Assembly: GCF_900105025.1 (NCBI RefSeq)
Contig: NZ_LT629759.1
Span: forward strand, 248,001 to 312,000
Length of the DNA: 64,000 nt
Direction of reading: 5' to 3'
Source of the DNA: Parafannyhessea umbonata
Lineage (GTDB): Bacteria; Actinomycetota; Coriobacteriia; Coriobacteriales; Atopobiaceae
The position numbers and the translations under genes were made by a program. Positions 33,420 to 51,354 of this stretch are shown here, piece by piece (position 1 is the stretch's first letter; each line of letters starts with the position of its first letter). The notes beneath the pieces are model-generated. The model was not told the origin of the DNA. It searched no databases and saw only the letters and a list, made by a program, of their open reading frames with translations.

Positions 33420-35153
33420 CTAGTCCTGTAGCAGCCCGTTGTCGCCAAGATAGTCCACGAACGAGCCAATGATCTTTGCCGTTCTGCACTCGATGTCCCG
33501 TTCGGTGAAATCCTCCATGGTTCGGGAAAGGTCTCTGAGCTCGACGACGGAAGTCCCGCTTCGCTCTTTGCCGTTTCCGTCGACGAAACCCTCGTAGTAC
33601 TTCTTCTTGTCTGAGAAGCGGTAGTCGGCCGCACGGATGTTTACGCGCTTCTCGAGAATTGCCTTGTTGCCGAGCGCCTCGAGGTTAGAACGCTTCGCGA
33701 GCGGCTCCACCTCGTTTCTCTTGCGGGCGTAGATATGCTCGATTTCAAGTGTGGTGTCGTTGTCGATCAGGGACTGGTCGGGATCGTTGAATGCCCACCA
33801 GGCGAGTATTGACTTCGTCACGGGGCGGCCGTTCGTGAATACGTACGACTGGAATCTCCCCGTGATGTCCGCCCGCTCGAAGCGGTGGTTCGAGAAGGAG
33901 ACCGGCCGGTGCTCGACGATGTTGATCATCTCGGGGTAGACCGGGGAGCGAAGCGCGTTCACGCCGGGCCGCTCGATAGCGTAGGCATAGATGAACGCGG
34001 TGATCAGGTTGAGGAACCGGTAGAGCTCCTCGTCGTCGAGCTCTCCCTCGGCGCTTCGGTTTGCCAGGAACCAGACGCTGAGCAGGTACGTCCACATGCC
34101 GTTCGGGGCGTAGCCGAGGACGAAGAGCCTGCGCAGGACCCTGTCGGAGAACCCGAACTGGCCGTCCACCTTCTTCCAGAACTCGAGCAGGCTCTCTAGG
34201 TCAGCGAGCGACTCCTCGCTTCTCAGCATCGCGTACTCGTCGCGGCTGAAGAAGTCTCGCAAGCTCTGGGTGGTGGTGTCCTTTATCCCCAGCTTCGCGC
34301 GGCGGTAATACATGTAGCGGGTGAACAGCTCGTCCATCGGGGTGCCCCGCAGGGGCTTGAAGATGGCGTTGGCGCCCGCCTCGAGGGATTTCCAGCGCGT
34401 GACGAACTCGTCTTTGCGGCCGAGGTCTGAGAAGTACTTGTAGAACTGGCTCTTGAAGATGTCGGCGTCCGAGAGCGGAAGCCCCCTGTCGTTGAGGGTG
34501 GAGAAGATTCTCAGGGCCGTGCTCTGCGACTCGGCTTCAATGGGGAGCAGGATGACGTTGTTCAGAATACGCGCAGCGAAGTACGCTATGTAACTCGGAT
34601 ATTCGTTCAGAAGCTTTTCGATGCTCTTCTGGAAGTACTGGAAGTTCCTGGCGTAGACGCTCCTCCACTCGCTTTCGACCTTCCCTGTGCGGAGGATGCT
34701 CAGGAACTCCTCCTTGTCGTCGTCGGATGCCACCTCCGAGTCTATCTTGAGGCGCCCCATGTCGGCGTCGCCGAACTCGTCGGTCTTCCAGACGCACTTG
34801 GAGATGTTCTCGTGCATCCGAGTAGAGTTCTTGTCCTTCATGTTCGCGAATCTGTCGTAGAACGCGCGCAGCAGGAGCATTATCGTGGTGAGCCTCTGCT
34901 GCCCGTCGATTATCTCCTGCCGGCCGTCTTCGTTCTTGAAGGTGACGATCGGGCCTAGGAAGTACTCATCGTTCTCGTCGAAGTTCTCGTAGTTGTCACC
35001 GGGAAAGGCGAACGCGAAAAGGTCGCTCCAGAGCGTCTCGCACTCGTCGGTCCCCCATGCGTAGGGTCTCTGGTAGTCGGGGATGAGGAAATCGGCCTTC
35101 TTGTCGGAGAGCAGCTCACCGATGGACTTCTGATCAATGTTCAGCTTCGACAT
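33420..35153 (-). CDS. DUF262-DUF1524 (GmrSD-like) defence protein
   Basis: This 577-residue protein joins an N-terminal DUF262 domain and a C-terminal DUF1524 nuclease domain, the layout of single-chain GmrSD type IV restriction enzymes that cut modified DNA. DUF262 shows IPDYQRPYAWG (24-34) and IIDGQQRLTTI (81-91, nucleotide-site motif). DUF1524 has EIEHIYARKRN with the likely catalytic H473, then LGNKAILEKRVN. The start at 35153 follows AAAGGCG. GC and codon use are lower than in neighbouring genes, and it sits next to a tRNA among gene remnants, which points to transfer. No methylase is nearby, as expected for type IV. Confidence 0.85.
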   Translation of the reverse strand: MSKLNIDQKSIGELLSDKKADFLIPDYQRPYAWGTDECETLWSDLFAFAFPGDNYENFDENDEYFLGPIVTFKNEDGRQEIIDGQQRLTTIMLLLRAFYDRFANMKDKNSTRMHENISKCVWKTDEFGDADMGRLKIDSEVASDDDKEEFLSILRTGKVESEWRSVYARNFQYFQKSIEKLLNEYPSYIAYFAARILNNVILLPIEAESQSTALRIFSTLNDRGLPLSDADIFKSQFYKYFSDLGRKDEFVTRWKSLEAGANAIFKPLRGTPMDELFTRYMYYRRAKLGIKDTTTQSLRDFFSRDEYAMLRSEESLADLESLLEFWKKVDGQFGFSDRVLRRLFVLGYAPNGMWTYLLSVWFLANRSAEGELDDEELYRFLNLITAFIYAYAIERPGVNALRSPVYPEMINIVEHRPVSFSNHRFERADITGRFQSYVFTNGRPVTKSILAWWAFNDPDQSLIDNDTTLEIEHIYARKRNEVEPLAKRSNLEALGNKAILEKRVNIRAADYRFSDKKKYYEGFVDGNGKERSGTSVVELRDLSRTMEDFTERDIECRTAKIIGSFVDYLGDNGLLQD

Positions 35154-35248
35154 GGGACGCCTTTCAAATGCCGGGGTTTGGAATTGCGTCACGGCAATTG
35201 TACTGCACGGCATCTGGAGCGCTGAAGCGTGCGGCATGGAATGGGCGC

Positions 35249-35440
35249 TCAGAACCGGTCGGGCCCCTGCGGTCTTGCGAGCTCGCCGTCGGCGTGGGCG
35301 ATGGCCTCGCGCCCGTGCTCGAGCCCCATCCGCTCGCCGGAGATGCACCACGGCGGATGACCTTCCATCGAGTAGGCCCAGTCTCGGCGTGCCGCCTTCG
35401 CGGAGTTGTCTGCGACCTCGGCGCCGATGGCGGATAGCAC
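35249..35440 (-). CDS. Small unknown protein upstream of the DUF262 gene
   Basis: This possible 63-residue acidic protein starts with GTG at 35440, 11 bases after GGAGGGAG, and reads in the same direction as the DUF262-DUF1524 gene 95 bases downstream. It is not recognised. It has a plausible amino-acid mix (SMEGHPPWCISGERMGLEHG) and could be an accessory protein or the end of a lost gene. Confidence 0.35.
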   Translation of the reverse strand: MLSAIGAEVADNSAKAARRDWAYSMEGHPPWCISGERMGLEHGREAIAHADGELARPQGPDRF

Positions 35441-39249: not shown

Positions 39250-40845
39250 ATGGAGAAGTACCTTTCGCGTCGTTCGTTCCTTGGTGTGAGTGCAAGTGCC
39301 GCGATGATGGCAACGCTCGCGGGCTGCGGTGGGTCTGGCAGCGATGACTCCGGAAGCGCCTCCGGATCTGGCAAGGAGGGTGGAGCCACCCTGAGCGTCG
39401 GCTCCGCGTACGCTCCCTCTTCCTACGACCCCGCCAACTGCTCCTCCGCCTTCTGCCTGAGTGCCAACAGCAACGTCATGGAGGGCCTGTACAACATCGA
39501 CCTCCACGACTACAGCGCCACGTATGGCCTGGCCGACAAGGACCCCGAGAAGGTCGACGACAAGACTTTCGAGGTCAAGCTCCGCAAGGGCGCCAAGTTC
39601 TCCGACGGCACCGACGTCACGGCTGACGACGTCGTCGAGTCCTTCAAGAAGGCCTCTGCCGAGGGCGGCATGTACGTCTCGTTCCTGTCCATGTTCGAGT
39701 CCATCGAGAAGAAGGACGACACGACCGTCACCGTCAAGGTGTCCATCCCGAACTTCTCGCTGCTCAAGGAGCGCCTGGCAATCATCAAGATCCAGCCGAA
39801 GGACATCACGACCGACGAGGCGTCCGCAAAGCCCGTGGGAACCGGTCCCTGGATGTACAAGGAGCTCTCCGACACGTCTGCGCACCTTGTCCCCAACAAG
39901 AAGTACAACGGGTCTCACCCCGCCAAGGACAAGAAGCTCCAGATTGACTCCCTCGTCGACGCCACTGCGCGCGTGACCGCACAGGAGGAGGGCTCCACCC
40001 TCATCTCCGAGTCCGTCCCGCCCGAGTCCATCGACCAGCTCAAGTCCGACGGCTGCAAGATCGACAAGGTCGAGGGCTTCGGCACCCGCTTCATCATGTT
40101 CGACCTCGACAAGGACCCCTGGAAGGACGTCAAGGTACGCCAGGCCGTCATGTACGCGCTCGACACCAAGAAGATGATCGAGAACGCGTTCTCCGGCCTC
40201 GCGAACATCCCCACCTCCTACCTGCCGAAGAGCTTCTCCTCCTATCACAAGGCCTCCGTCACCTACAAGCACGACCTCGACAAGGCGAAGCAGCTCATCA
40301 AGGAGTCCGGCATCACTCCGGGTAAGATTGTCCTTCGCACTACCGACAACGCGCAGGTCGTCGCAATGGGCACCCAGGCCCAGCAGGACCTGAAGGAGCT
40401 TGGCTTCGACGTCGAGCTGAAGAGCGACCAGTCCCCCGCGACCTACGCGGCCATCGACCAGATGGACTCCTCGTGGGACATCCTCATCGCCCCTGGTGAC
40501 CCCTCCTGCTTCGGCGGCGACACCGACCTGCTCCTCAACTGGTGGTTCGGTGACAACGTCTGGATGAAGACGCGCTGCCACTGGAACGAGAGCGCGGAGT
40601 GGAAGGAGCTCAACAAGCTCATGAACGAGGCCCTTGGCCAGTCTGGCTCCGAGCAGCAGAAGACCTGGAACAAGTGCTTCGACATCCTGGCCGAGAACGT
40701 CGTCCTCTACCCGGTGCTCCAGGTCATCACGCCGACGGCGTCCTGGTCCACCAACGCAACGAGCGATGGCTATGCCGTCAAGGGCTTCAAGGGCATCGGA
40801 ACCACCGGCGTCGATCTCACCGATGTGCGCACCGTCTCCAAGTAG
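39250..40845 (+). CDS. Family-5 ABC substrate-binding lipoprotein (SatA-like)
   Basis: This 531-residue dipeptide/nickel-type binding protein has a signal with SRRSFLG, lipobox LAGC and a Ser/Gly linker. Family-5 features include the NVMEGLYNIDLHDY stretch, VTADDVVESFKKA, KPVGTGPWMYKEL and VRQAVMYALDTKKM. Position ahead of nan genes suggests sialic acid binding, as in SatA of the SatABCD importer. GGTGAGGAG precedes the ATG. A perfect 16-base terminator separates it from the permease, which should raise its relative level. Codon use is rich in CTC/GTC/ATC. Confidence 0.85.
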   Translation: MEKYLSRRSFLGVSASAAMMATLAGCGGSGSDDSGSASGSGKEGGATLSVGSAYAPSSYDPANCSSAFCLSANSNVMEGLYNIDLHDYSATYGLADKDPEKVDDKTFEVKLRKGAKFSDGTDVTADDVVESFKKASAEGGMYVSFLSMFESIEKKDDTTVTVKVSIPNFSLLKERLAIIKIQPKDITTDEASAKPVGTGPWMYKELSDTSAHLVPNKKYNGSHPAKDKKLQIDSLVDATARVTAQEEGSTLISESVPPESIDQLKSDGCKIDKVEGFGTRFIMFDLDKDPWKDVKVRQAVMYALDTKKMIENAFSGLANIPTSYLPKSFSSYHKASVTYKHDLDKAKQLIKESGITPGKIVLRTTDNAQVVAMGTQAQQDLKELGFDVELKSDQSPATYAAIDQMDSSWDILIAPGDPSCFGGDTDLLLNWWFGDNVWMKTRCHWNESAEWKELNKLMNEALGQSGSEQQKTWNKCFDILAENVVLYPVLQVITPTASWSTNATSDGYAVKGFKGIGTTGVDLTDVRTVSK

Positions 40846-40971: not shown

Positions 40972-41928
40972 ATGAATAATCTTTTGCGGCTCATCGGAAG
41001 ACGACTCATCGCGTTGCCCATCATGGCAATCGGCGTCACCTTCCTGGTCTTCTTCCTGATGTCGTTCTCGACGATCGACCCCGCGTACAAGGCGCTGGGC
41101 GAGAGCGCGACGCCGGAGCAGGTCGCCGAGTACCACAAGGAGTACGGACTGGACGATCCGTGGCCCGTCCGCTACGTCCGCTACATGGGCAACCTCCTTC
41201 ACGGGGACCTCGGCACCTACAGCGCCCGCCGCAGTTCCGTCGCGACGCGCATCTCCAAGGCGCTTCCCGTCACGATGCAGCTCACCTTCATAGGACTGCT
41301 CATCGGCGCGCTCGTCTCGTTCCTTCTCGGCGTCATCGCCGCGCTCTACAGGGACAAGTGGCCTGACCAGCTGATCAGGCTCCTCTCCATTGCCGGGCTG
41401 GCGACACCGTCGTTCTGGCTGGCGGTGCTCCTGATACTTCTGTTCTCGTCGAACCTGCACCTGCTGCCCGCGTCCGGCATGCTTCCCGATCCCGGCAAGA
41501 ACTTCGGCGCGTACATGGCGCGCATGATCATGCCGGCGATCTCGCTTGCGGTGCCCCTCACGGGACAGATGACCCGCATCGTGCGCACCGCCATGGTCGA
41601 GGAGCTCGACCGCGACTACGTCACCACCGCACGCGGCGCAGGCATCCCCGAGAAGGTCGTCATCGCGAAGAACGTCCTTCGCAACGCCCTCATCACGCCG
41701 GTCACGACCCTCGGCATGAAGATCGGTTACCTCATGGGCGGCGCGGTCGTCATCGAGGTCATCTTCAACCTCCCCGGCATGGGCATGTGCATCCAGGACG
41801 GCGTCTCGGGCAATGAGCCGAACCTCATCATGGGTGTCGTCATCGTCGTCGCACTTGCATTCATCGTCATCAACATCGTGGTTGACATGCTGTACCTGCT
41901 TATCAACCCGAGGATCAGGAGCGTGTAG
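40972..41928 (+). CDS. ABC importer permease (DppB/SatB-like)
   Basis: This 318-residue permease has six membrane segments and the EAA-type loop AARGAGIPEKVVIAKNVLRNALI, which contacts the ATPase. GLDDPWPVRYVRYMGNLLHGDLG is the typical DppB periplasmic loop. GAGAGGGGAG lies upstream of the ATG. It is followed after 2 bases by the permease-ATPase fusion. It is the first membrane subunit of the putative sialic acid importer. Confidence 0.88.
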   Translation: MNNLLRLIGRRLIALPIMAIGVTFLVFFLMSFSTIDPAYKALGESATPEQVAEYHKEYGLDDPWPVRYVRYMGNLLHGDLGTYSARRSSVATRISKALPVTMQLTFIGLLIGALVSFLLGVIAALYRDKWPDQLIRLLSIAGLATPSFWLAVLLILLFSSNLHLLPASGMLPDPGKNFGAYMARMIMPAISLAVPLTGQMTRIVRTAMVEELDRDYVTTARGAGIPEKVVIAKNVLRNALITPVTTLGMKIGYLMGGAVVIEVIFNLPGMGMCIQDGVSGNEPNLIMGVVIVVALAFIVINIVVDMLYLLINPRIRSV

Positions 41929-41930
41929 CC

Positions 41931-43985
41931 ATGCTGACAAGAAGAAAGGAAGGAGCCGAGGAGCTCGAGGCGCTGTCCGCCAAGAAGCCCAGCCTCAAGG
42001 GTCTTGGCAGCATGCGCACCAGCTCGAAGATTGCGCTCGGCATCCTCGCCGTCGTCGTGATCCTCTCGGTCCTGGCGTCCGTCATCGCGCCGTTCGACCC
42101 CTATGCCATCGACATAGCGCGCAAGGCCCCGACGGCGGCGCACGTCTTCGGAACCGACGACAAGGGCCGCGACATCCTGTCCCGTATGCTGTACGGCGGT
42201 CGCATCTCGCTCGTCATCGGCTTCGGCGCCACGCTGTTCGCGCTCGTAACCGGCTCCATCATCGGTGCCATCGCGGCCGTGTCCCGCAAGTGGGTGTCCG
42301 AGGTCATCATGCGCATCCTCGACATCATCATGTCCGTCCCCGGCATCGCCCTCGCGGCGGTCCTCGTCACCATCCTCGGCAAGTCCGTGCCGGCGATCAT
42401 CTTCTCGATCGGCTTCATGTACATGCCGCAGATCGCGCGCCTCGTTCGTGCGAACATCATGAGTGAGTACGGCGAGGACTACGTTCGCGCGGTCATCGTC
42501 TCGGGCGCCCGCGCCCCGTGGATCCTTGTGAAGCACGTCCTTCGCAACTGTGCCGCGCCGATCCTCGTGTTCACCGTCACGCTCGTCGCCGACGCCATCA
42601 TCTTCGAGGCGTCGCTCACCTTCCTGTCCGCGGGCATCGCGGAGCCGACGCCAACATGGGGCAACATCCTGGCCGACGCCCGCGCGGGCGTGCTGTCCGG
42701 ACGCTGGTGGCAGGCGCTCTTCCCGGGCATCGCGATCATGGTCACGTGCCTTGCGCTGAACATCCTCTCCGAGGGCATCACGGACGCCATGGCGGCGGCC
42801 CCTGCCGCGCCGGTTGACGCCGAGAACAGCGAGAGCCGTCGTGCGGACGACATCCTCGCCTCCGACCCCGTCCGCGCCTACAAGGAGCAGGCGGCCTCCC
42901 TCGAGCGCAGGCTCGGCGCCCTTCGGAAGGTGGAGCTCGCGCGCACGGACCGTCACGTCCCGGACCTGTCCGTCAAACCCATACTCTCTGTCAGGGACCT
43001 CTGCATCAGCTTCCCCTCGCATGGTGACGTGAACGTCGTGGACCACGTCTCGTTCGACGTCCGTCCCGGCCAGTGCATGGCGCTCGTGGGCGAGTCCGGA
43101 TGCGGCAAGTCCATCACCACGAAGTCGATCATGAACCTCCTGCCCAAGACGGCTAGGATCTCCGGCGAGATCGACTACAAGGGCACGGACCTTCTCAAGA
43201 TCAGCGACGAGGAGCACCGCAAGCTCCTTGGCACCGAGATGGCCATGGTCTATCAGGACGCCCTCTCGTCGCTTAACCCGTCCATGCTCATCTCCGCTCA
43301 GATGAAGCAGCTCACGAGCCGCGGCGGCACCCGCAGCGCGGAGGAGCTCCTCGAGCTCGTCGGCCTCGACCCCAAGCGCACGCTCGAGAGCTACCCGCAC
43401 GAGCTTTCCGGCGGCCAGCGCCAGCGCGTGCTCATCGCCATGGCGCTCACCCGCGACCCGTCCCTCGTCATCTGCGACGAGCCGACGACCGCCCTCGACG
43501 TGACCGTCCAGAAGCAGGTCATCAAGCTCCTGAACGACCTCCAGGCAAAGCTCGGCTTCGCCATGATCTTCGTGTCCCACGACCTCGCGCTCGTGGCGGA
43601 GGTCGCATCCGAGATCACCGTCATGTACGCCGGTCAGATCATCGAGCAGGCCCCCACAAAGGAGCTGCTCACGAACCCGATTCACGAGTACACGCGCGGT
43701 CTTCTGGGCTCGGTCCTCTCCATCGAGGAGGGCGCGAAGGATGGCTCCCGCCTGCACCAGGTGCCCGGCTCCGTGCCGTCGCCCGAGGACTTCCCGAAGG
43801 GCGACCGCTTCGCGCCGCGCTCCAGCCACCCCACGCTCGGCCTCGACGTGCACCCCGTCATCAAGGCCCTGCCGGGAGGCTCACACCACAAGTACTCCGA
43901 GCTGCCCGACGAGTACCTCGAGAAGAACGGCCTTCTTCCGTACCTCCAGAGGGCCGGCATTGCGACGGCAAAGGAGGTGAGGTAG
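41931..43985 (+). CDS. Fused ABC permease-ATPase (DppC-DppD type)
   Basis: This 684-residue protein joins a DppC-type permease (about 1-295; FGTDDKGRDILSR and the EAA loop VSGARAPWILVKHVLRN) to a DppD-type ATPase (about 346-684) through a charged linker. The ATPase has Walker A GESGCGKS (about 387), signature LSGGQRQR (about 492) and Walker B DEPTTALD. The oligopeptide-ATPase C-terminal extension follows. The ATG lies 2 bases after the previous stop and the stop abuts the next GTG. I recall SatC of Haemophilus ducreyi having the same fusion, supporting a sialic acid importer. Confidence 0.9.
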   Translation: MLTRRKEGAEELEALSAKKPSLKGLGSMRTSSKIALGILAVVVILSVLASVIAPFDPYAIDIARKAPTAAHVFGTDDKGRDILSRMLYGGRISLVIGFGATLFALVTGSIIGAIAAVSRKWVSEVIMRILDIIMSVPGIALAAVLVTILGKSVPAIIFSIGFMYMPQIARLVRANIMSEYGEDYVRAVIVSGARAPWILVKHVLRNCAAPILVFTVTLVADAIIFEASLTFLSAGIAEPTPTWGNILADARAGVLSGRWWQALFPGIAIMVTCLALNILSEGITDAMAAAPAAPVDAENSESRRADDILASDPVRAYKEQAASLERRLGALRKVELARTDRHVPDLSVKPILSVRDLCISFPSHGDVNVVDHVSFDVRPGQCMALVGESGCGKSITTKSIMNLLPKTARISGEIDYKGTDLLKISDEEHRKLLGTEMAMVYQDALSSLNPSMLISAQMKQLTSRGGTRSAEELLELVGLDPKRTLESYPHELSGGQRQRVLIAMALTRDPSLVICDEPTTALDVTVQKQVIKLLNDLQAKLGFAMIFVSHDLALVAEVASEITVMYAGQIIEQAPTKELLTNPIHEYTRGLLGSVLSIEEGAKDGSRLHQVPGSVPSPEDFPKGDRFAPRSSHPTLGLDVHPVIKALPGGSHHKYSELPDEYLEKNGLLPYLQRAGIATAKEVR

Positions 43986-44807
43986 GTGAGCGACGCCACG
44001 AAAGAGGAGCCCATCATCTTCCTCGACGACATCTCTGTGACGTTCAGGACCCGCACGGGCTCCATCCTGCACCCGAACCTCGTTCACGCCGTCCAGGGCG
44101 TAACCATCAAGCTCATGCCGGGCGAGACCGTGGGCATCGTGGGCGAGTCCGGCTGCGGCAAGTCCACCACGGCAAACGTCATGTGCGGCCTGCAGTCGCC
44201 CACGTCCGGTCACGTGTACTTCAAGGGGACGGACGTCACGAAGCGCACGGCGGACCTGCGCAAGAAGATCGGTCGCGTCGTCTCGGTCGTGTTCCAGGAC
44301 CCCGCGACCGCGCTCAACCCCCGCATGGTCGTCCACGACCAACTGCGCGATCCGCTCCTTGTGCACAAGGTCGGCACCGCGCAGGAGCAGGAGAGGCGCA
44401 TCAACGAGCTCATCGAACTCGTCGGCCTTCCCAAGAGCGCCCTGCGCGCCCTGCCGGGGCAGCTGTCCGGCGGACAGCGCCAGCGCGTCGCCATCGCGCG
44501 TGCCATGTCGCTGCAGCCTGACGCGATCATCGCGGACGAGCCCACCTCCGCGCTCGACGTGTCCGTCCGCGCGCAGATCCTGAACCTGCTGACGGACCTC
44601 AAGCGCGACCTCGGGCTGTCCATGATCTTCATCAGCCACGACATCCAGACCGTGCGCTACATATCCGACCGCATCATCGTGATGAACCACGGCCAGATCA
44701 TGGAGCAGGGTCCGGCGAAGCAGGTGTTCGAGCACCCGCAGGACGCCTACACGAAGACGCTTCTGGGCGCCGCGCCGTCGCTTCTGCACCCGAAGCTCGG
44801 CCAGTAG
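43986..44807 (+). CDS. ABC importer ATPase (DppF/SatD-like)
   Basis: This 273-residue ATPase has Walker A GESGCGKST (about 55-63), signature LSGGQRQRVAIARAM and Walker B DEPTSALD, and the switch histidine in ISHDIQT. It pairs with the ATPase half of the preceding fusion. The GTG start directly follows that stop codon, with AAGGAGGTGAG overlapping the end of the previous gene. A stem-loop follows before the esterase gene. Confidence 0.9.
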   Translation: MSDATKEEPIIFLDDISVTFRTRTGSILHPNLVHAVQGVTIKLMPGETVGIVGESGCGKSTTANVMCGLQSPTSGHVYFKGTDVTKRTADLRKKIGRVVSVVFQDPATALNPRMVVHDQLRDPLLVHKVGTAQEQERRINELIELVGLPKSALRALPGQLSGGQRQRVAIARAMSLQPDAIIADEPTSALDVSVRAQILNLLTDLKRDLGLSMIFISHDIQTVRYISDRIIVMNHGQIMEQGPAKQVFEHPQDAYTKTLLGAAPSLLHPKLGQ

Positions 44808-44943: not shown

Positions 44944-45918
44944 ATGGTGAGCGAAACGGAGCTGGCAAGGCTCGAGGCGTATCGCGGCGCGAGCGCGATC
45001 CCGGACGACTTCGATGAGTTCTGGGACGAACGCATGGCGGAGGCCGATGCGGCGCCGCTTGACTTTGAGGTCGTACCCGCGGACGCGCCCAGCACGCCCA
45101 CGTGCCGCCTCAGCGACATCTGGTTTCGGGGCGTGCGGGGCGAGAAGGTCTACGCCCGCTACCTAAGGCCGCTCGGCCCTGCGGGCGACAGCCGGCCCGT
45201 GCCGCTGGTGCTGAGGTTCCACGGCTATCCCGGCCGCACGCGCAGCTGGTTCGAGAACTGCTCCTTCGCGGGCATGGGGTTCGCGGACATCACGATGGAC
45301 AACCCCGGCCAGGGCGGCCGCAGCCAGGACGTGGGCGCGTACGCCGGCACGACGGTCGCGGGCCACGTGGTCCTGGGGCTGGACGGCGACCCCAGGGACC
45401 TGTACTACGTGCGGCTGCACCAGAACGTGCGCGTGCTGTGCCGCATCGTGCGCGAGCTGCCGGGGATCGACCTTTCTCGCGTGTGCGTGTACGGGGACTC
45501 GCAGGGCGGCGGCGTGGGCCTTGCGACCTGCGCGCTGAACCCAGACCTCGTGAGCAGGGCCGCCATCCTGTATCCGTTTCTGAGCGACTTCCGCTCCGTG
45601 TGGGAGGACGGCGCGGACGAGGTTGCGTACGAGGGCATACGCTACTACTCGCGCTGGTTCGACGCGGACGGTTCGCGCGCGGACGAGTGGCTGGGGAGGC
45701 TCGGCTACATCGACACGCTGAGCTTCGCGCACCGGGTGCGCTGCGACGTGCTGTTTGGCACGGGCCTTGCGGACACTGTGTGCCCGCCGGAGACGCAGTT
45801 TGCGGTGTACAACGCGTTGACGTGCGAGAAGAGCCACATCCTGTACCCGGACTTTGGCCACGAGGAGATACCCGCCTTCGACGACGAGGTGCTCCGCTTC
45901 TTCTGGCAGGGGGCGTGA
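44944..45918 (+). CDS. CE7-type acetylesterase (acetyl xylan esterase-like)
   Basis: This 324-residue alpha/beta hydrolase of the CE7 family has the RGQGGR-like element (PGQGGRS, 121-127), nucleophile motif GDSQGG (S186), acid D277 in GTGLADTVCPP and H306 in FGHEE. CE7 enzymes deacetylate sugars. In this nan cluster the likely substrate is O-acetylated sialic acid, by context only. The ATG at 44944 follows AAGGGGGTGGG; the second CE7-like gene follows after one base. Confidence 0.83.
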   Translation: MVSETELARLEAYRGASAIPDDFDEFWDERMAEADAAPLDFEVVPADAPSTPTCRLSDIWFRGVRGEKVYARYLRPLGPAGDSRPVPLVLRFHGYPGRTRSWFENCSFAGMGFADITMDNPGQGGRSQDVGAYAGTTVAGHVVLGLDGDPRDLYYVRLHQNVRVLCRIVRELPGIDLSRVCVYGDSQGGGVGLATCALNPDLVSRAAILYPFLSDFRSVWEDGADEVAYEGIRYYSRWFDADGSRADEWLGRLGYIDTLSFAHRVRCDVLFGTGLADTVCPPETQFAVYNALTCEKSHILYPDFGHEEIPAFDDEVLRFFWQGA

Positions 45919-45919
45919 C

Positions 45920-46987
45920 ATGGGCGGTCTGACGCGGCAGATGCGCGTGTTCGAGGCATACGACGGCACGTCGACGGTGCCAGTGGACCTTGCGGGTTTC
46001 TGGCGCTGCCGCCTTGGTACGGCCGCGCCGCTTGCACCTGACGCCGTGCGCCGCGAGCCCGCCGGCTTCGACACGCCCGTCGCCACGTACGAGCGGCTGA
46101 CGTTTGCGGCGGCGGACGGCGCGGAGCTGCACGCGCGCTACGTGTGCCCCCGCGGCGCGGGCGGCGCGGACCGCGGCGGCGCTGTCGCGCCGCGCGTGCC
46201 CACGGTGGTGATGACGCACGACGTGACGTGCGGTCCGCGCGGCTGGCACCACCTGACCCGCTTTGCGGCCATAGGGCACGCCGTGGTCGAGCTGGAGCGC
46301 AGGCCGTGGTCGGGAAACGTGTGCGCCGGGTGGGAGCAGGGCCCCGCAGCCCTGCAGATGACGCGCCTGATAGAGGACATGGCGCGCACGGCCCAGGCCG
46401 CGGCGTCGCTTCCGCGCACGGACGTGGCGCACCTGTCCGCGTGGGGCGAGGGCCTTGCCGGCGCGCTCGCCATCGACGCGGCAGCCGCCCTGGACGCGTG
46501 CGATGGCACGGTTCGCCTGCGCCGCGTGGCCGCGCTCAACCCCATGCCGGCGGACGTGCGCGCCACGTGGGAGGCCGGCGGCTCCAGGCTCGTGTACGCA
46601 GCCGTCAGGAACCACTTCCGCGTGGAGGACCCCACCGCGGCGCGGGAGGCCGCGTTCTTCTCGGCGCTTGACTACGTGGACGCGGCTAACATGGCGACGC
46701 TGCTTCGCGCCCCGCTGCTTTTGGGCACGTCCATGATGGACGACGCGGCGCTTCCGCAGAGCCAGTACGCGGTCTTCAACCGCGTGACGGGCGAGAAGCG
46801 CCACCTGACGTACCCCAAGTGGGGCCACGAGCGCGTGAACGACTTCGAGGATGCGCTCATGGCGTACCTGGTGGCGCCGTGGGACGCGTGCTCCGGCGGG
46901 GACCGTGGCGGCGGAGAGCCCGGCGGGGGCGGTGGAGAAGCCCGTGGCGGCGAGGCTTGCGGCGGCGTTGCGGGAGGAATAGGTTAG
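45920..46987 (+). CDS. CE7-like protein lacking the catalytic serine
   Basis: This 355-residue paralogue of the preceding esterase keeps the fold landmarks (GFWRCRLG near the start, D274 in GTSMMDD, H303 in WGHERVNDF), but the nucleophile motif is replaced: YGDSQGG aligns with SAWGEGL, putting Gly176 where serine should be. It is probably a non-catalytic pseudoenzyme or a subunit of the active esterase. It ends in a Gly-rich, Cys-containing tail of about 35 residues. The start overlaps the upstream gene region with AGGGGG as its site. I infer loss of activity from the motif only. Confidence 0.7.
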   Translation: MGGLTRQMRVFEAYDGTSTVPVDLAGFWRCRLGTAAPLAPDAVRREPAGFDTPVATYERLTFAAADGAELHARYVCPRGAGGADRGGAVAPRVPTVVMTHDVTCGPRGWHHLTRFAAIGHAVVELERRPWSGNVCAGWEQGPAALQMTRLIEDMARTAQAAASLPRTDVAHLSAWGEGLAGALAIDAAAALDACDGTVRLRRVAALNPMPADVRATWEAGGSRLVYAAVRNHFRVEDPTAAREAAFFSALDYVDAANMATLLRAPLLLGTSMMDDAALPQSQYAVFNRVTGEKRHLTYPKWGHERVNDFEDALMAYLVAPWDACSGGDRGGGEPGGGGGEARGGEACGGVAGGIG

Positions 46988-47062: not shown

Positions 47063-47989
47063 ATGGCAGACTTCAAGATCAGGGGCGTCGTCCCGCCCGT
47101 CACCGTTCCGGACACGGACGACCACCAGCTGGACGTGCCCTCGTTCGAGCGCGTGATCAACAGGATGATCGACGCGGGCGTGGACGGCCTGTTCTTCCTG
47201 GGGTCCACGGGCGAGGTCGTGTTCTCCACGGACGAGCGCCGCGACCAGATCGTGCGCGAGGCCGTGCGGATCGTGGACCATCGCGTGCCCGTGCTCGTGG
47301 GCATCATCGACACGGAGACGGAGCGCATGCTTGAGCACGGCCGCCGCGCGCTTGCGCTGGGCGCGGACGCGCTCGTGGCGACGTGCCCGTTCTACGCGCT
47401 GCAGGGCATGACGGAGGTGGAGGAGCACTTCCGCATCCTGCACGAGGAGCTGGACGCACCGATCTTTGCGTACGACATCCCCGTGTGCGTGCACACGAAG
47501 CTGCCGTGGAAGCTTCTGGCCAGGCTGGGCGCGGAGGGCGTGCTCGCCGGCGTGAAGGACTCCTCCGGCGACGACGTGTCGTTCCGCTACCTGGTGCAGG
47601 AGAACGAGAAGAACGGCCACCCGCTGACGCTCCTGACCGGCCACGAGATCGTGGTGGACGGCGCGTACCTGGGCGGCGCGGACGGATCGGTCCCGGGGCT
47701 CGCGAACGTGATCCCCGTGCCGTACGTGGAGCAGTGGAAGGCGGCCGAGGCCGGCGACTGGGCCCGCGTGAAGGAGCTGCAGGACCAGATAAACGAGGTG
47801 TCGCACATATTTGACGTCACGTCCGGCGTGCAGGGCTACGCCGGCGGCGTCGGCGCGTTCAAGTGCGCCCTGAACCTCATGGGCGTGTTCGCTTCCAGCC
47901 AGATGCCGAGGCCCGTGAAGCCGCTCGAGGGCGCGAACCGCGAGGCCATCCGCAAGGTGCTGGTGGATACGGGCGTGCTCGAGGCGTAG
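47063..47989 (+). CDS. nanA: N-acetylneuraminate lyase NanA (DHDPS superfamily)
   Basis: NanA splits sialic acid into ManNAc and pyruvate. This 308-residue aldolase has the Schiff-base lysine K165 (GVKDSSGD), Tyr137 in FAYDIP and the GSTGE motif (47-51), matching the numbering of E. coli NanA. Dihydrodipicolinate synthase is excluded by context, since dapA is at 60471. GGAGGAG precedes the ATG. It is followed by nanK and nanE. Confidence 0.85.
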   Translation: MADFKIRGVVPPVTVPDTDDHQLDVPSFERVINRMIDAGVDGLFFLGSTGEVVFSTDERRDQIVREAVRIVDHRVPVLVGIIDTETERMLEHGRRALALGADALVATCPFYALQGMTEVEEHFRILHEELDAPIFAYDIPVCVHTKLPWKLLARLGAEGVLAGVKDSSGDDVSFRYLVQENEKNGHPLTLLTGHEIVVDGAYLGGADGSVPGLANVIPVPYVEQWKAAEAGDWARVKELQDQINEVSHIFDVTSGVQGYAGGVGAFKCALNLMGVFASSQMPRPVKPLEGANREAIRKVLVDTGVLEA

Positions 47990-48026
47990 GCGCGGGCGCG
48001 AGGCTTGCGAAGAGTTGGGAGAAGCG

Positions 48027-48992
48027 ATGGATGAGCTCAAGAGGGTAGTGGCCGTGGACGTGGGCGGCACGAAGGTCGCGGCGGCGCTCGTGACGCTGTC
48101 GGACGCGGGCGAGCCTGCGATCGAGCACTATGGCAAGGCGCCCACGGAGGCGAAGCTCGGCGGCAGGCACGTGCTGGAGGTCATCGTGGGCCAGGTGGAG
48201 CGCGTGCTGCGCGAGGCGGACCGCGAGGCGTGCGGCATCGGCGTCTCCACCGGCGGCGTGGTGGACCCCCTGACGGGTGACATCACGTACGCGAACGACA
48301 TGATGCCCGGCTGGGGCGGCACGCACCTGGGCGCGGAGCTCGAGGCGCGCTTTGGCCTGAAGGCACGCGTCATGAACGACGTGCACGCCCATGCGCTGGG
48401 CGAGGCCCGCTGGGGTGCTGGCAGGGGAGCGGAGTCCGTGTTCGTGTGCGCGGTGGGCACGGGCATCGGCGGCGCGTTCGTGGAGCGCGGCCACCTGCTG
48501 CTGGGCGCACACGGCGCCGCGACAAACATCGGCCACGTGACGTGCGTGGACGCGCGCGGAATCCCGTGCCAGTGCGGAGCCGTGGGCCACGTCGAGACCA
48601 TCGCGGCCGGCCCCGGCATCCTGGAGCGCTACCTGGAGCTGGGCGGTGCCAAGACGGACGAGAAGGGCGCCCCCGTGGACGGCGCGTATATCAGCCGTGC
48701 GGCGGAGGACGGCGACGAGGCCGCCGTCGCGGCCGAGACGCGCTCCGGGCGCGCGCTGGGCGAGGTGCTTGGCAACATGGTGAACCTGTTCGACCCGGAG
48801 TGCGTGGTGCTCTCCGGCTCCGTGGCCAAGTGCGGGCCGGTGTGGCACCGGGCGCTTCAGTCCGGCTGGGACGGCGCCGTCATGCCGCCGCAGGCGCACA
48901 CGCCCATACGCGACGGCCAGCTGGGCGACAACGCGCCGCTCGTGGGCGCGGCCGAGAACCTGGTGCGCTCCGCGTACGTCGGCCTCGAGTAG
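48027..48992 (+). CDS. nanK: ROK-family N-acetylmannosamine kinase NanK
   Basis: NanK phosphorylates ManNAc to ManNAc-6-P. This 321-residue ROK protein has the ATP motif DVGGTK (11-16), catalytic D118 in NDVHAHALGE and the zinc-site motif C181-x-C183-x4-H188 (usually C-x-C-x4-C). The kinase assignment over glucokinase rests on its place between nanA and nanE. The ATG at 48027 follows GGGAGAAG; the open frame starts 12 bases earlier. Confidence 0.82.
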   Translation: MDELKRVVAVDVGGTKVAAALVTLSDAGEPAIEHYGKAPTEAKLGGRHVLEVIVGQVERVLREADREACGIGVSTGGVVDPLTGDITYANDMMPGWGGTHLGAELEARFGLKARVMNDVHAHALGEARWGAGRGAESVFVCAVGTGIGGAFVERGHLLLGAHGAATNIGHVTCVDARGIPCQCGAVGHVETIAAGPGILERYLELGGAKTDEKGAPVDGAYISRAAEDGDEAAVAAETRSGRALGEVLGNMVNLFDPECVVLSGSVAKCGPVWHRALQSGWDGAVMPPQAHTPIRDGQLGDNAPLVGAAENLVRSAYVGLE

Positions 48993-49040: not shown

Positions 49041-49730
49041 ATGGAAGTAGCTCCTCTCGTCCAGTCCCTCAAGGGCAAGCTCGTCGTGAGCGTGCAGGCG
49101 TATCCCGGCGAGCCGCTGCGCCACCCGGAGACCATGGCCCAGATGGCCCAGGCGTGCGAGGAGGGCGGCGCCGCGGCCATCCGCTGCCAGGGCCTGGCGG
49201 ACATCGCCGCGATCAAGGGCCGCGTGGAGGTGCCCGTGATCGGCCTGTGGAAGGAGGGGCACGAGGGCGTGTACATCACGCCGACGCTGCGTCATGCCGT
49301 CGCGTGCGTGAACGCCGGCGCGGACGTGGTCGCCATCGACGCGACGGCGCGGCCGAGGCCGGACGGGCGCACGTTTGCCCAGACCGTGCGCGACCTGCGC
49401 GCGCAGTGCGAGACGCTCGTGATGGCGGACTGCATGACGATCGAGGACATCAGGAACGCCGTCGCGTGCGGCTGCGACCTGGTGTCGACCACGCTCAGCC
49501 ACAACAAGCCCGCGATTCAGACCACGATGGACGAGGGCCCGGACCTGGACCTGCTGCGTCAGGCTACCAGCGAGTTCCCGGGGCTGCCCATCATCTGCGA
49601 GGGGCACGTGCACACGCCGGCGGACGCCGCGGCGGCCATGGGCGCCGGCGCGTGGGCCGTCGTGGTGGGCACGGGCATCACGCACCCAACGAGCCTGACG
49701 AAGTGGTTCTGCGCGGCGGTCGAGGGGTAG
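49041..49730 (+). CDS. nanE: ManNAc-6-phosphate 2-epimerase NanE
   Basis: NanE converts ManNAc-6-P to GlcNAc-6-P. This 229-residue TIM barrel has VVSVQAYPGEPL near the N-terminus, IRCQGLADIAAIK, the GLWKEG loop, VVAIDATARPRP and the phosphate-binding GEVHTP-like ICEGHVHTP. AGGGGAAAGG precedes the ATG. Its last 53 bases overlap the end of the convergent flavoprotein gene. Confidence 0.92.
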   Translation: MEVAPLVQSLKGKLVVSVQAYPGEPLRHPETMAQMAQACEEGGAAAIRCQGLADIAAIKGRVEVPVIGLWKEGHEGVYITPTLRHAVACVNAGADVVAIDATARPRPDGRTFAQTVRDLRAQCETLVMADCMTIEDIRNAVACGCDLVSTTLSHNKPAIQTTMDEGPDLDLLRQATSEFPGLPIICEGHVHTPADAAAAMGAGAWAVVVGTGITHPTSLTKWFCAAVEG

Positions 49731-51327
49731 CTTCCGGCACGCGCGCAATGCTGGCATGCGGGCCGCCGTCCCGCATGTCCACGAAGATGGGCGCCCCGTA
49801 CTCCCCGCGCTCGCGGGGGTGGTCGGCGCGATAGTGGGCGCCCCGGCTCTCGCGCCGCTCGAGCATCGCACGGGCGGCAGCGAGGGCCGACGTGGCGAGA
49901 AGCGCAAGCTGCCTTTCTCGCGCGGTGGCACGGATGCCCAGCAGCGTGTCGATGGCATGCGCAAGGCCGGGCTCGTCCCGCCGTACCAGGCAGTGCTCGC
50001 CCATGGTCCGGCGCAGCAGGGCCACGTCGGGCGCTGCGTCGTGGGACAAGCCGGCGACATCGGCCGCGCGCCAGGCGTGGTCGCGCGCCCAGCGGGGGAG
50101 CGCGGGCGCCGCCAAAGGCGCGGGCGCGGTGGACCCGGCGGCCTCGCTTCCGGCAATCTTCCCAAAGACAAGCGCGTTTGCGCTGGAAAGGCCGCCTATG
50201 CGGTCCGCGCCGTGCATGCCTCCCGTTAGCTCGCCGCACGCGAAGAGGCCCTGCGGTGCCCCCAGGCACCGCGCGTGCGCGTCAATCGCGACGCCGCCGT
50301 TCGAGGCGTGCGCAAAGTGGCAGATCCTGAGGCCGCGGGTCCAGCCGGGGCCAAGCGCCTGCTCCGCCCACCGCGCATACGTGCCCACGAAGTCCGGCAG
50401 CGGGCTGGGCAAATCTAGCTCCACGGAAGCGCCCGCCGCGCCCGCGGCCGCGATGGCCAGGTCGACGGCAAGGTCCGGAAGGCGTGCCGTCATGGGACCG
50501 TGGGCCGACCTCATGCGCAGCAGGTCCTCGTCCAGCGCAAGTCGTGTGCCGTCAGCCGCGCGCAGCCGTGCATAGCGAAACGTGCGCTCGTTGAAGACGA
50601 CGCCTCGCACCGGGGCGAGAAGACCGCACATGATCTGCTGGAACTCCACGTTCACGAGGCGCCCGCCGTGCTCGAGCACTATGGCGTGCGCGCACCCGCC
50701 AGCGTCTGGCCCGGCGAGCGTGCGGTCGAACAGGCCGCCGAGGCCGCCCGTCGCCAGGACCATGCTGCCGCACGGCGCATATGCCAGGTCGCCCGTCGCG
50801 CGGTCCAGAAAGACGCCGCCGCATACCCGGTCCGATGCCTCGAGCACGTCCAAAAGCTCGAGCCCGGCCGTGTGGGCGACGCCCTCCTCGCGCAGCAGCC
50901 GCCCGACGGCATGCACGTAGCCATCGCGCCGGATGCCGTGCCAGTCGCGCGTGGCGTGGTCAAAGCAGGGCACGTAGTCGAGCTCCTCCTCGCTTCCGGC
51001 CGTGGGGCGCGCAAGCTCGCAGCCCTGGGCGGCAAGTTCCCGTACCGCGCCGGGGATGCCGTGCACGAGCGTGCGCACAAGGGCCTCGTCCGCCATGCCT
51101 GCCCCCACGTGGCAGATCGTGCGAACGAGGTCCTCTGCGTCGTCCTCGTCGTGCGGTCCCACAAGCCCCAGCCCCCACGTGCCGGGAAAGAAGCTCGAGC
51201 CGGAAAACAGGGGGCCCGCGGACGCGATGCGCACGCGCGCGCCCTGGCGCGCCGCCGCAAGCGCCGCCTGCGTGCCGGCAAGCCCGGCACCCACCACCAG
51301 CACGTCGCAGCGCTCGAGCGTCCGCAT
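49678..51327 (-). CDS. FAD-dependent oxidoreductase (fumarate reductase/NadB-like)
   Basis: This 549-residue flavoprotein has an N-terminal FAD Rossmann motif VVVGAGLAGTQAALAA and a C-terminal FAD motif GLFACGELTGGMHGADRIGG, typical of the succinate dehydrogenase/L-aspartate oxidase group. Its substrate is unknown; no nad genes are adjacent. It is the last gene of a nagB-flavoprotein pair on the minus strand, 27 bases after nagB. The start is ATG at 51327 (or GTG at 51342). It overlaps nanE tail-to-tail by 53 bases. Confidence 0.75.
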   Translation of the reverse strand: MRTLERCDVLVVGAGLAGTQAALAAARQGARVRIASAGPLFSGSSFFPGTWGLGLVGPHDEDDAEDLVRTICHVGAGMADEALVRTLVHGIPGAVRELAAQGCELARPTAGSEEELDYVPCFDHATRDWHGIRRDGYVHAVGRLLREEGVAHTAGLELLDVLEASDRVCGGVFLDRATGDLAYAPCGSMVLATGGLGGLFDRTLAGPDAGGCAHAIVLEHGGRLVNVEFQQIMCGLLAPVRGVVFNERTFRYARLRAADGTRLALDEDLLRMRSAHGPMTARLPDLAVDLAIAAAGAAGASVELDLPSPLPDFVGTYARWAEQALGPGWTRGLRICHFAHASNGGVAIDAHARCLGAPQGLFACGELTGGMHGADRIGGLSSANALVFGKIAGSEAAGSTAPAPLAAPALPRWARDHAWRAADVAGLSHDAAPDVALLRRTMGEHCLVRRDEPGLAHAIDTLLGIRATARERQLALLATSALAAARAMLERRESRGAHYRADHPRERGEYGAPIFVDMRDGGPHASIARVPEATPRPPRRTTSSGSLGA

Positions 51328-51354
51328 GTCCCTAGGTCCCACGCGTGCCGCCGG

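Follow-up and report, generated by a model that had tools for sequence, protein, structure and literature searches.

Two CE7 paralogues in a sialic acid operon

The window, a 64,000-nucleotide stretch of the Parafannyhessea umbonata genome, carries two consecutive plus-strand genes, here called A (324 residues) and B (355 residues plus stop), which encode homologous CE7-type proteins and are separated by 1 nt. B has glycine at the position of the catalytic serine, which raises the question of what such a paralogue does beside an esterase with a complete triad. The initial annotation described the first protein as a CE7 enzyme with GDSQGG, an acid and a histidine, and the second as keeping the acid and the histidine with Gly in place of Ser. 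Both descriptions hold: A contains GDSQGG together with Asp277 and His306, and in B the elbow reads WGEGLAG, where Gly178 occupies the nucleophile column, while Asp274 and His303 are retained. The change in B was, however, understated, as the oxyanion Tyr, the Gln following the nucleophile and the β-interface loop are gone as well, the loop after the RGQ position being nearly absent. Scores against the Pfam AXE1 profile are 282.9 bits for A and 119 bits for B; since the cut-off is 21 bits, a chance likeness of B to AXE1 was ruled out and B is a true homologue. No NCBIfam model was found for either protein, and an AlphaFold2 prediction of B, made from an alignment of four rows only, had a mean pLDDT of 30.4.

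Along almost their entire length, A and B are homologous to the CE7 acetyl xylan esterases/cephalosporin C deacetylases (AXE1; 3fcy, 6fkx, 1l7a, 1vlq and 6agq), 3fcy and 6fkx being the best solved relatives of both. A shares with these enzymes the Ser, the acid, the His, the GxSQG and HE motifs, the N-terminal extension, the β-interface loop and the three-helix insertion, and differs from them in having PGQ instead of RGQ. B belongs to the family by its AXE1 profile match and its HE motif, whereas the catalytic Ser in GxSQG and the β-interface loop are missing.

Both genes lie in an operon with transport and sialic acid catabolism genes (Table 1). In the longer loci the order is solute-binding protein, permease, permease-ATPase, ATPase, A, B, NanA, NanK and NanE, and the order A-B-NanA-NanK is found in 21/21 loci (3.9–19.5 kb), where NanA and NanK were identified by family and gene order and the B of one locus (L098) was recognized by profile. 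In L035, a locus from a relative within the genus, A and B are 95–99% identical to those of the window.

Table 1 Features of the operon, with positions in the window
Feature	Position	Strand	Evidence
Solute-binding protein of ABC transporter (SBP_bac_5)	39250..40845	+	Pfam, synteny
ABC permease (DppB-like)	40972..41928	+	Pfam, synteny
Fused ABC permease-ATPase (DppC+DppD-like)	41931..43985	+	BPD_transp_1, ABC_tran and oligo_HPY in one ORF; synteny
ABC ATPase (DppF-like)	43986..44807	+	Pfam, synteny
A: CE7-type (AXE1) esterase, Ser186/Asp277/His306	44944..45918	+	Translation, Pfam, alignment of 60 A proteins
B: AXE1 paralogue without Ser, GEG elbow, Gly178/Asp274/His303, HER	45920..46987	+	Translation, Pfam, orthologues
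Gly-rich C-terminal tail of B, two Cys	46886..46984	+	C-termini of 38 B proteins compared
NanA-like aldolase (DHDPS family)	47063..47989	+	Pfam; NCBIfam below cut-off only (N-acetylneuraminate lyase, DapA)
ROK kinase (NanK-like)	48015..48992	+	Pfam, synteny
NanE, putative N-acetylmannosamine-6-phosphate 2-epimerase	49041..49730	+	Pfam; NCBIfam NF002231 over cut-off

The operon context, the solo CE7 genes of other sialic acid clusters and the pneumococcal literature support A as a putative cytoplasmic sialate O-acetylesterase. In the cited sections of the report on pneumococcal Axe (PMC5352144), this Ser-His-Asp acetyl-xylan esterase is intracellular, frees acetate from bovine submaxillary mucin in a manner that requires Ser181 and boosts sialidase action; it is presented there as a single enzyme, with no mention of an inactive partner in those sections, unlike the A and B pair. 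On the plasmids of Lactobacillus intestinalis and Cetobacterium somerae, a CE7 gene adjoins NanE, or SiaP and NanA; each cluster has one CE7, which keeps the Arg of RGQ, and no B was present in the 11-kb stretches scanned. A search of the window's genome for a BNR_2 sialidase was negative, in keeping with scavenging of free sialic acid.

RGQ is a named motif of the CE7 family (PMC6282417, cited in part). In A its Arg is replaced by Pro in 59/60 proteins, the remaining one having a gap (59/59 readable), and it is kept in 13/14 other actinobacterial CE7 proteins (Lys in one) and in 4/4 plasmid CE7 proteins. The solo CE7 enzymes of other sialic acid clusters thus differ at this position from the A proteins partnered by a B. 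Since the replacement probably reflects one evolutionary event, it offers at most a hint that A changed along with B. On the basis of its profile score and triad, A is classed as a relative of the CE7 enzymes that is predicted to work as they do, although one motif is missed under the strict three-motif definition. A complementary idea, that B generally retains the Arg lost by A, looked plausible at 38/46 proteins, yet the full set gave 38/61 and it was dropped.

Several further features of the operon were observed. The 684-residue DppC/DppD-like permease-ATPase gave one continuous tblastn match of about 2 kb in each of the 20 related operons that reach it, so this fusion looks conserved. A fumarate-reductase-like FAD oxidoreductase gene (49678–51342, minus strand) lies between NanE and NagB, and among the loci compared it occurs at this place elsewhere only in L035, of the same genus. 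In another locus (L100:9099–10023) the NanA match is in two pieces (78% and 76% identity), perhaps owing to a frameshift or an assembly error.

Glycine replaces the nucleophile throughout the B proteins

Of 140 genomes of the window's family (Atopobiaceae) searched with PF05448, 38 have a strong A-type gene, and reading of these loci showed a B at every one. A profile built from the 38 B proteins was then run against 395 genomes of the order Coriobacteriales, in which A and B are adjacent in all 61 carrier genomes, 38 of the window's own family and 23 of a second one; weak partial profile matches in two genomes (G275 and G375) were left out. No B without an adjacent A was detected among the 395 genomes. 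Both their profile scores and their Ser mark all 14 matches fetched from elsewhere in the phylum as catalytic CE7 proteins, with no B among them. A scan of viral contigs for B gave nothing, and of the 23 plasmid records matching B, the four CE7 loci that were read are ordinary catalytic CE7.

Conservation of the glycine in orthologues had been set as one check on the proposed pairing. The nucleophile column holds Gly in 61/61 B proteins, and Ser in 60/60 A partners (an A fragment, G079, was excluded from the alignment) and in 14/14 other actinobacterial CE7 proteins used as a control; the possibility that B orthologues retain Ser therefore falls away. In the A proteins, Ser, Gln, Asp and His are each present in 60/60. 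The stress laid on the acid and the histidine of the second protein is justified in that most B proteins keep them, but neither is invariant (acid 56/61, His 58/61). Three proteins (L013, L014 and L032) have lost both, which makes the retained pair less important for B. The pairing of a paralogue lacking Ser with an esterase that has a complete triad is thus borne out by the fixed Gly, the obligate adjacency and the natural fusions described below. The Gly/Cys-rich tail originally described is present in the window's B, where it is Gly-rich with two Cys, but a general role does not follow, as it is confined to the two B-carrying genomes of the window's genus, in two different versions. Among the 38 B proteins compared, the others stop 0–11 residues past the core, one of them running off its contig, and the importance of the tail was accordingly dropped.

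A 42-protein tree groups A with B as sister lineages (99/96) and places the B sequences in one clade (100/100); the A/B group branches within CE7 proteins from Firmicutes and Fusobacteria. B is therefore a duplicate of the operon's own esterase, and unless the two families exchanged the operon, the duplication predates their divergence. The B gene changes faster than A: of ten pairs of related genomes, one (L019/L026) was set aside because it had too few changes, and the nine informative pairs gave dN/dS values of 0.12–0.40 for B and 0.04–0.12 for A, calculated from stop-to-stop frames that include short non-coding or overlapping 5′ stretches. These values indicate that B is constrained, less tightly than A. 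The B frame is open in 61/61 genomes of two families, which, with dN/dS below 1, rules out a recent pseudogene. On sequence grounds, B is a pseudoenzyme in the sense that a residue essential for catalysis has been lost throughout while the gene stays under purifying selection.

Rebuilt pocket and reduced interface elements of B

The core segments of B have the same length as in A. The parts that are shortened are the N-terminal extension, the β-interface loop and the three-helix insertion, which are the inter-subunit elements of CE7 proteins (PMC6209228, cited in part) and are full-length in the 42 A proteins measured. In the separate B proteins of the window's family (n = 25), the β-interface loop has a median of 10 of 25 residues, and in those of the second family (n = 8) the medians are 7 of 25 for the loop and 5 of 46 for the three-helix insertion. 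The fused B domains (n = 13) are stripped furthest, with medians of 2 of 46 for the N-terminal extension, 0 of 25 for the loop and 5 of 46 for the insertion. A few separate B proteins have insertions at the β-interface loop (range to 61). As subunit-contact elements are deleted in many B proteins, B could not simply occupy the canonical seat in the CE7 hexamer. A CE7 protein of Thermotoga that lacks the β-interface loop can still form hexamers.

The former active site has been changed in a consistent manner. Pocket counts were taken from 61 B, 60 A and 14 other CE7 proteins, and the pocket residues of PbAcE (from the cited part of PMC6209228) were mapped onto A and B by their spacing from the triad, not by superposition. 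Relative to A, the replacements in B are Gly to Asp101, Ser to Arg114, Ser to Gly178, Glu to Arg305 and Gln to Asn307, accompanied by Glu to His111 (59/61), Tyr to Asn207 (59/61) and Asp to Glu310 (60/61, with one gap). Asp101, Arg114, Arg305 and Asn307 are fixed only in B, each in 61/61 proteins, at or beside pocket elements; together with Glu304 (61/61), they are invariant residues that the initial annotation did not mention. The residue preceding the nucleophile-column Gly is acidic in 61/61 (Glu177 in 59/61, Asp in two). Next to the His column, the Glu of the HE motif and the Arg two positions past the His column are both present in 61/61, against 58/61 for the His itself. The oxyanion Tyr and the Gln are not among the common residues of their columns in the 61 B proteins. 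The retention of this fixed set of replacements even in the stripped fused B domains points to a pocket that is in use.

Linkage and natural fusion of A and B

Of the 38 pairs in the window's own family, 25 consist of separate genes, and in the other 13 A is followed by B in a single reading frame, one of the 13 being split by a contig break. The gaps in 33 separate pairs range from −22 to +6 nt, measured from the A stop to the nearest B start codon. The joints of the fusions are short, about 0–30 residues, and in several of them the last helix of A leads into the first strand of B without a linker. All fused B domains belong to one clade (SH-aLRT 97), so that a single fusion event is the simplest history.

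Genes of one operon can come to lie next to each other because they are regulated together, even if their products never touch; the natural fusions imply that A and B would associate physically. After removal of the mean of five operon proteins, the residual distances of A and B correlate at 0.56 across 20 related loci, the highest value of six protein pairs (the other five −0.25 to 0.40, with B and NanK also reaching 0.40), these coefficients standing without a permutation test.

Proposed role of B

We consider that B is probably a dedicated non-hydrolytic partner of A, acting through its rebuilt pocket. A would deacetylate imported O-acetylated sialic acid in the cytoplasm and so make it usable by NanA, NanK and NanE. 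B, an ancient duplicate of A, would have given up ester hydrolysis with the Ser to Gly change and the loss of the oxyanion Tyr, the Gln and the β-interface loop. It may dock on A near the C-terminal helix of the latter, as the natural fusions imply, and its polar pocket would most likely hold a sialate or acetyl ligand, by which B may activate, stabilize or feed A. In the simplest form, B would be an activator or substrate holder resembling a prozyme. The A–B complex, the ligand of B and the activating or presenting effect are what we infer from these data. Against a partner role stand the pneumococcal esterase, which functions with no B, and the plasmid CE7 proteins, which are found with none, as well as the faster evolution of B and the possibility that the fusion happened only once.

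Other explanations of the conserved pocket were weighed. B might be an enzyme in its own right, with a novel activity in sialate catabolism that needs no serine, and joined to A only in a bifunctional arrangement. The pocket appears rebuilt rather than worn, with five residues invariant and Glu177 and His111 nearly so, and the fused domains kept it despite losing the three interface elements; enzyme fusions, moreover, often link consecutive steps. We nevertheless regard this as unlikely, as the loss of both His and acid in three B proteins means that a His-Asp base is not essential, and no B occurs away from A in the 395 genomes searched. A somewhat less likely explanation is a purely structural subunit that helps A to fold or assemble and whose pocket is empty. 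Fusion, gene closeness and the loss of catalytic parts agree with it, and some of the conserved pocket residues could support the fold, but the invariant residues lie mostly at the former active site and it is the known CE7 contact elements that are being lost. More improbable still, B could be a serine-free sialate-handling domain that passes its product directly to the esterase site of A, which would now depend on it. The Ser to Gly change would here have opened the pocket, and the gained Arg114 and Arg305 would hold the sialate carboxylate while, for example, an O-acetyl group is moved from C7/C8 to C9, or a lactone or anomer is opened.

The two remaining explanations are nearly excluded. 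An ester hydrolase with another nucleophile would account for the frequent retention of acid and His, but the oxyanion Tyr and the Gln are missing, and a substitute at the elbow was rejected because the seven residues at the elbow include neither Ser nor Cys in any of 46 B proteins, three of which have Thr at +1. Decay of a functionless duplicate, if anything the more remote of the two, would agree with a dN/dS above that of A and with shortening in several lineages; it is contradicted by the open frames in 61 genomes, dN/dS values well under 1, the invariant new residues and the persistence in two families.

Relation to known systems

Most known cases of an inactive paralogue regulating an active sister are eukaryotic. 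The A/B pair would add a bacterial example, in which the inactivation is fixed, the duplication is clean and both separate and naturally fused forms exist. The closest parallel in kind comes from AdoMetDC of Trypanosoma brucei, whose prozyme is an inactive paralogue that forms a pair with the active enzyme, as proposed here for B; protein and pathway are unrelated, and complex and activation are proven in that system according to the cited part of PMC5201418, whereas for A and B they are deduced. In the open-licence PMC literature, neither a CE7 enzyme with a serine-less partner nor B in work on sialate esterases of Coriobacteriia was found. The findings suggest that O-acetylated sialic acids are processed by a two-part enzyme in members of the Coriobacteriales, and the sialic acid operon should yield a testable growth phenotype. 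The label "acetylxylan esterase", if transferred to B by homology, would be wrong.

Other features of the window and genome

The window also contains a gene for a GmrSD-type restriction endonuclease (33420–35351, minus strand; Pfam GmrSD_N and GmrSD_C). Elsewhere in the same genome, three copies of a sequence of at least 3.1 kb (L003, 1819–4974; L004, 7093–10248; L005, 2335422–2338577) are 99.7–99.9% identical; they lie near contig ends and each contains a hydrolase-like open reading frame.
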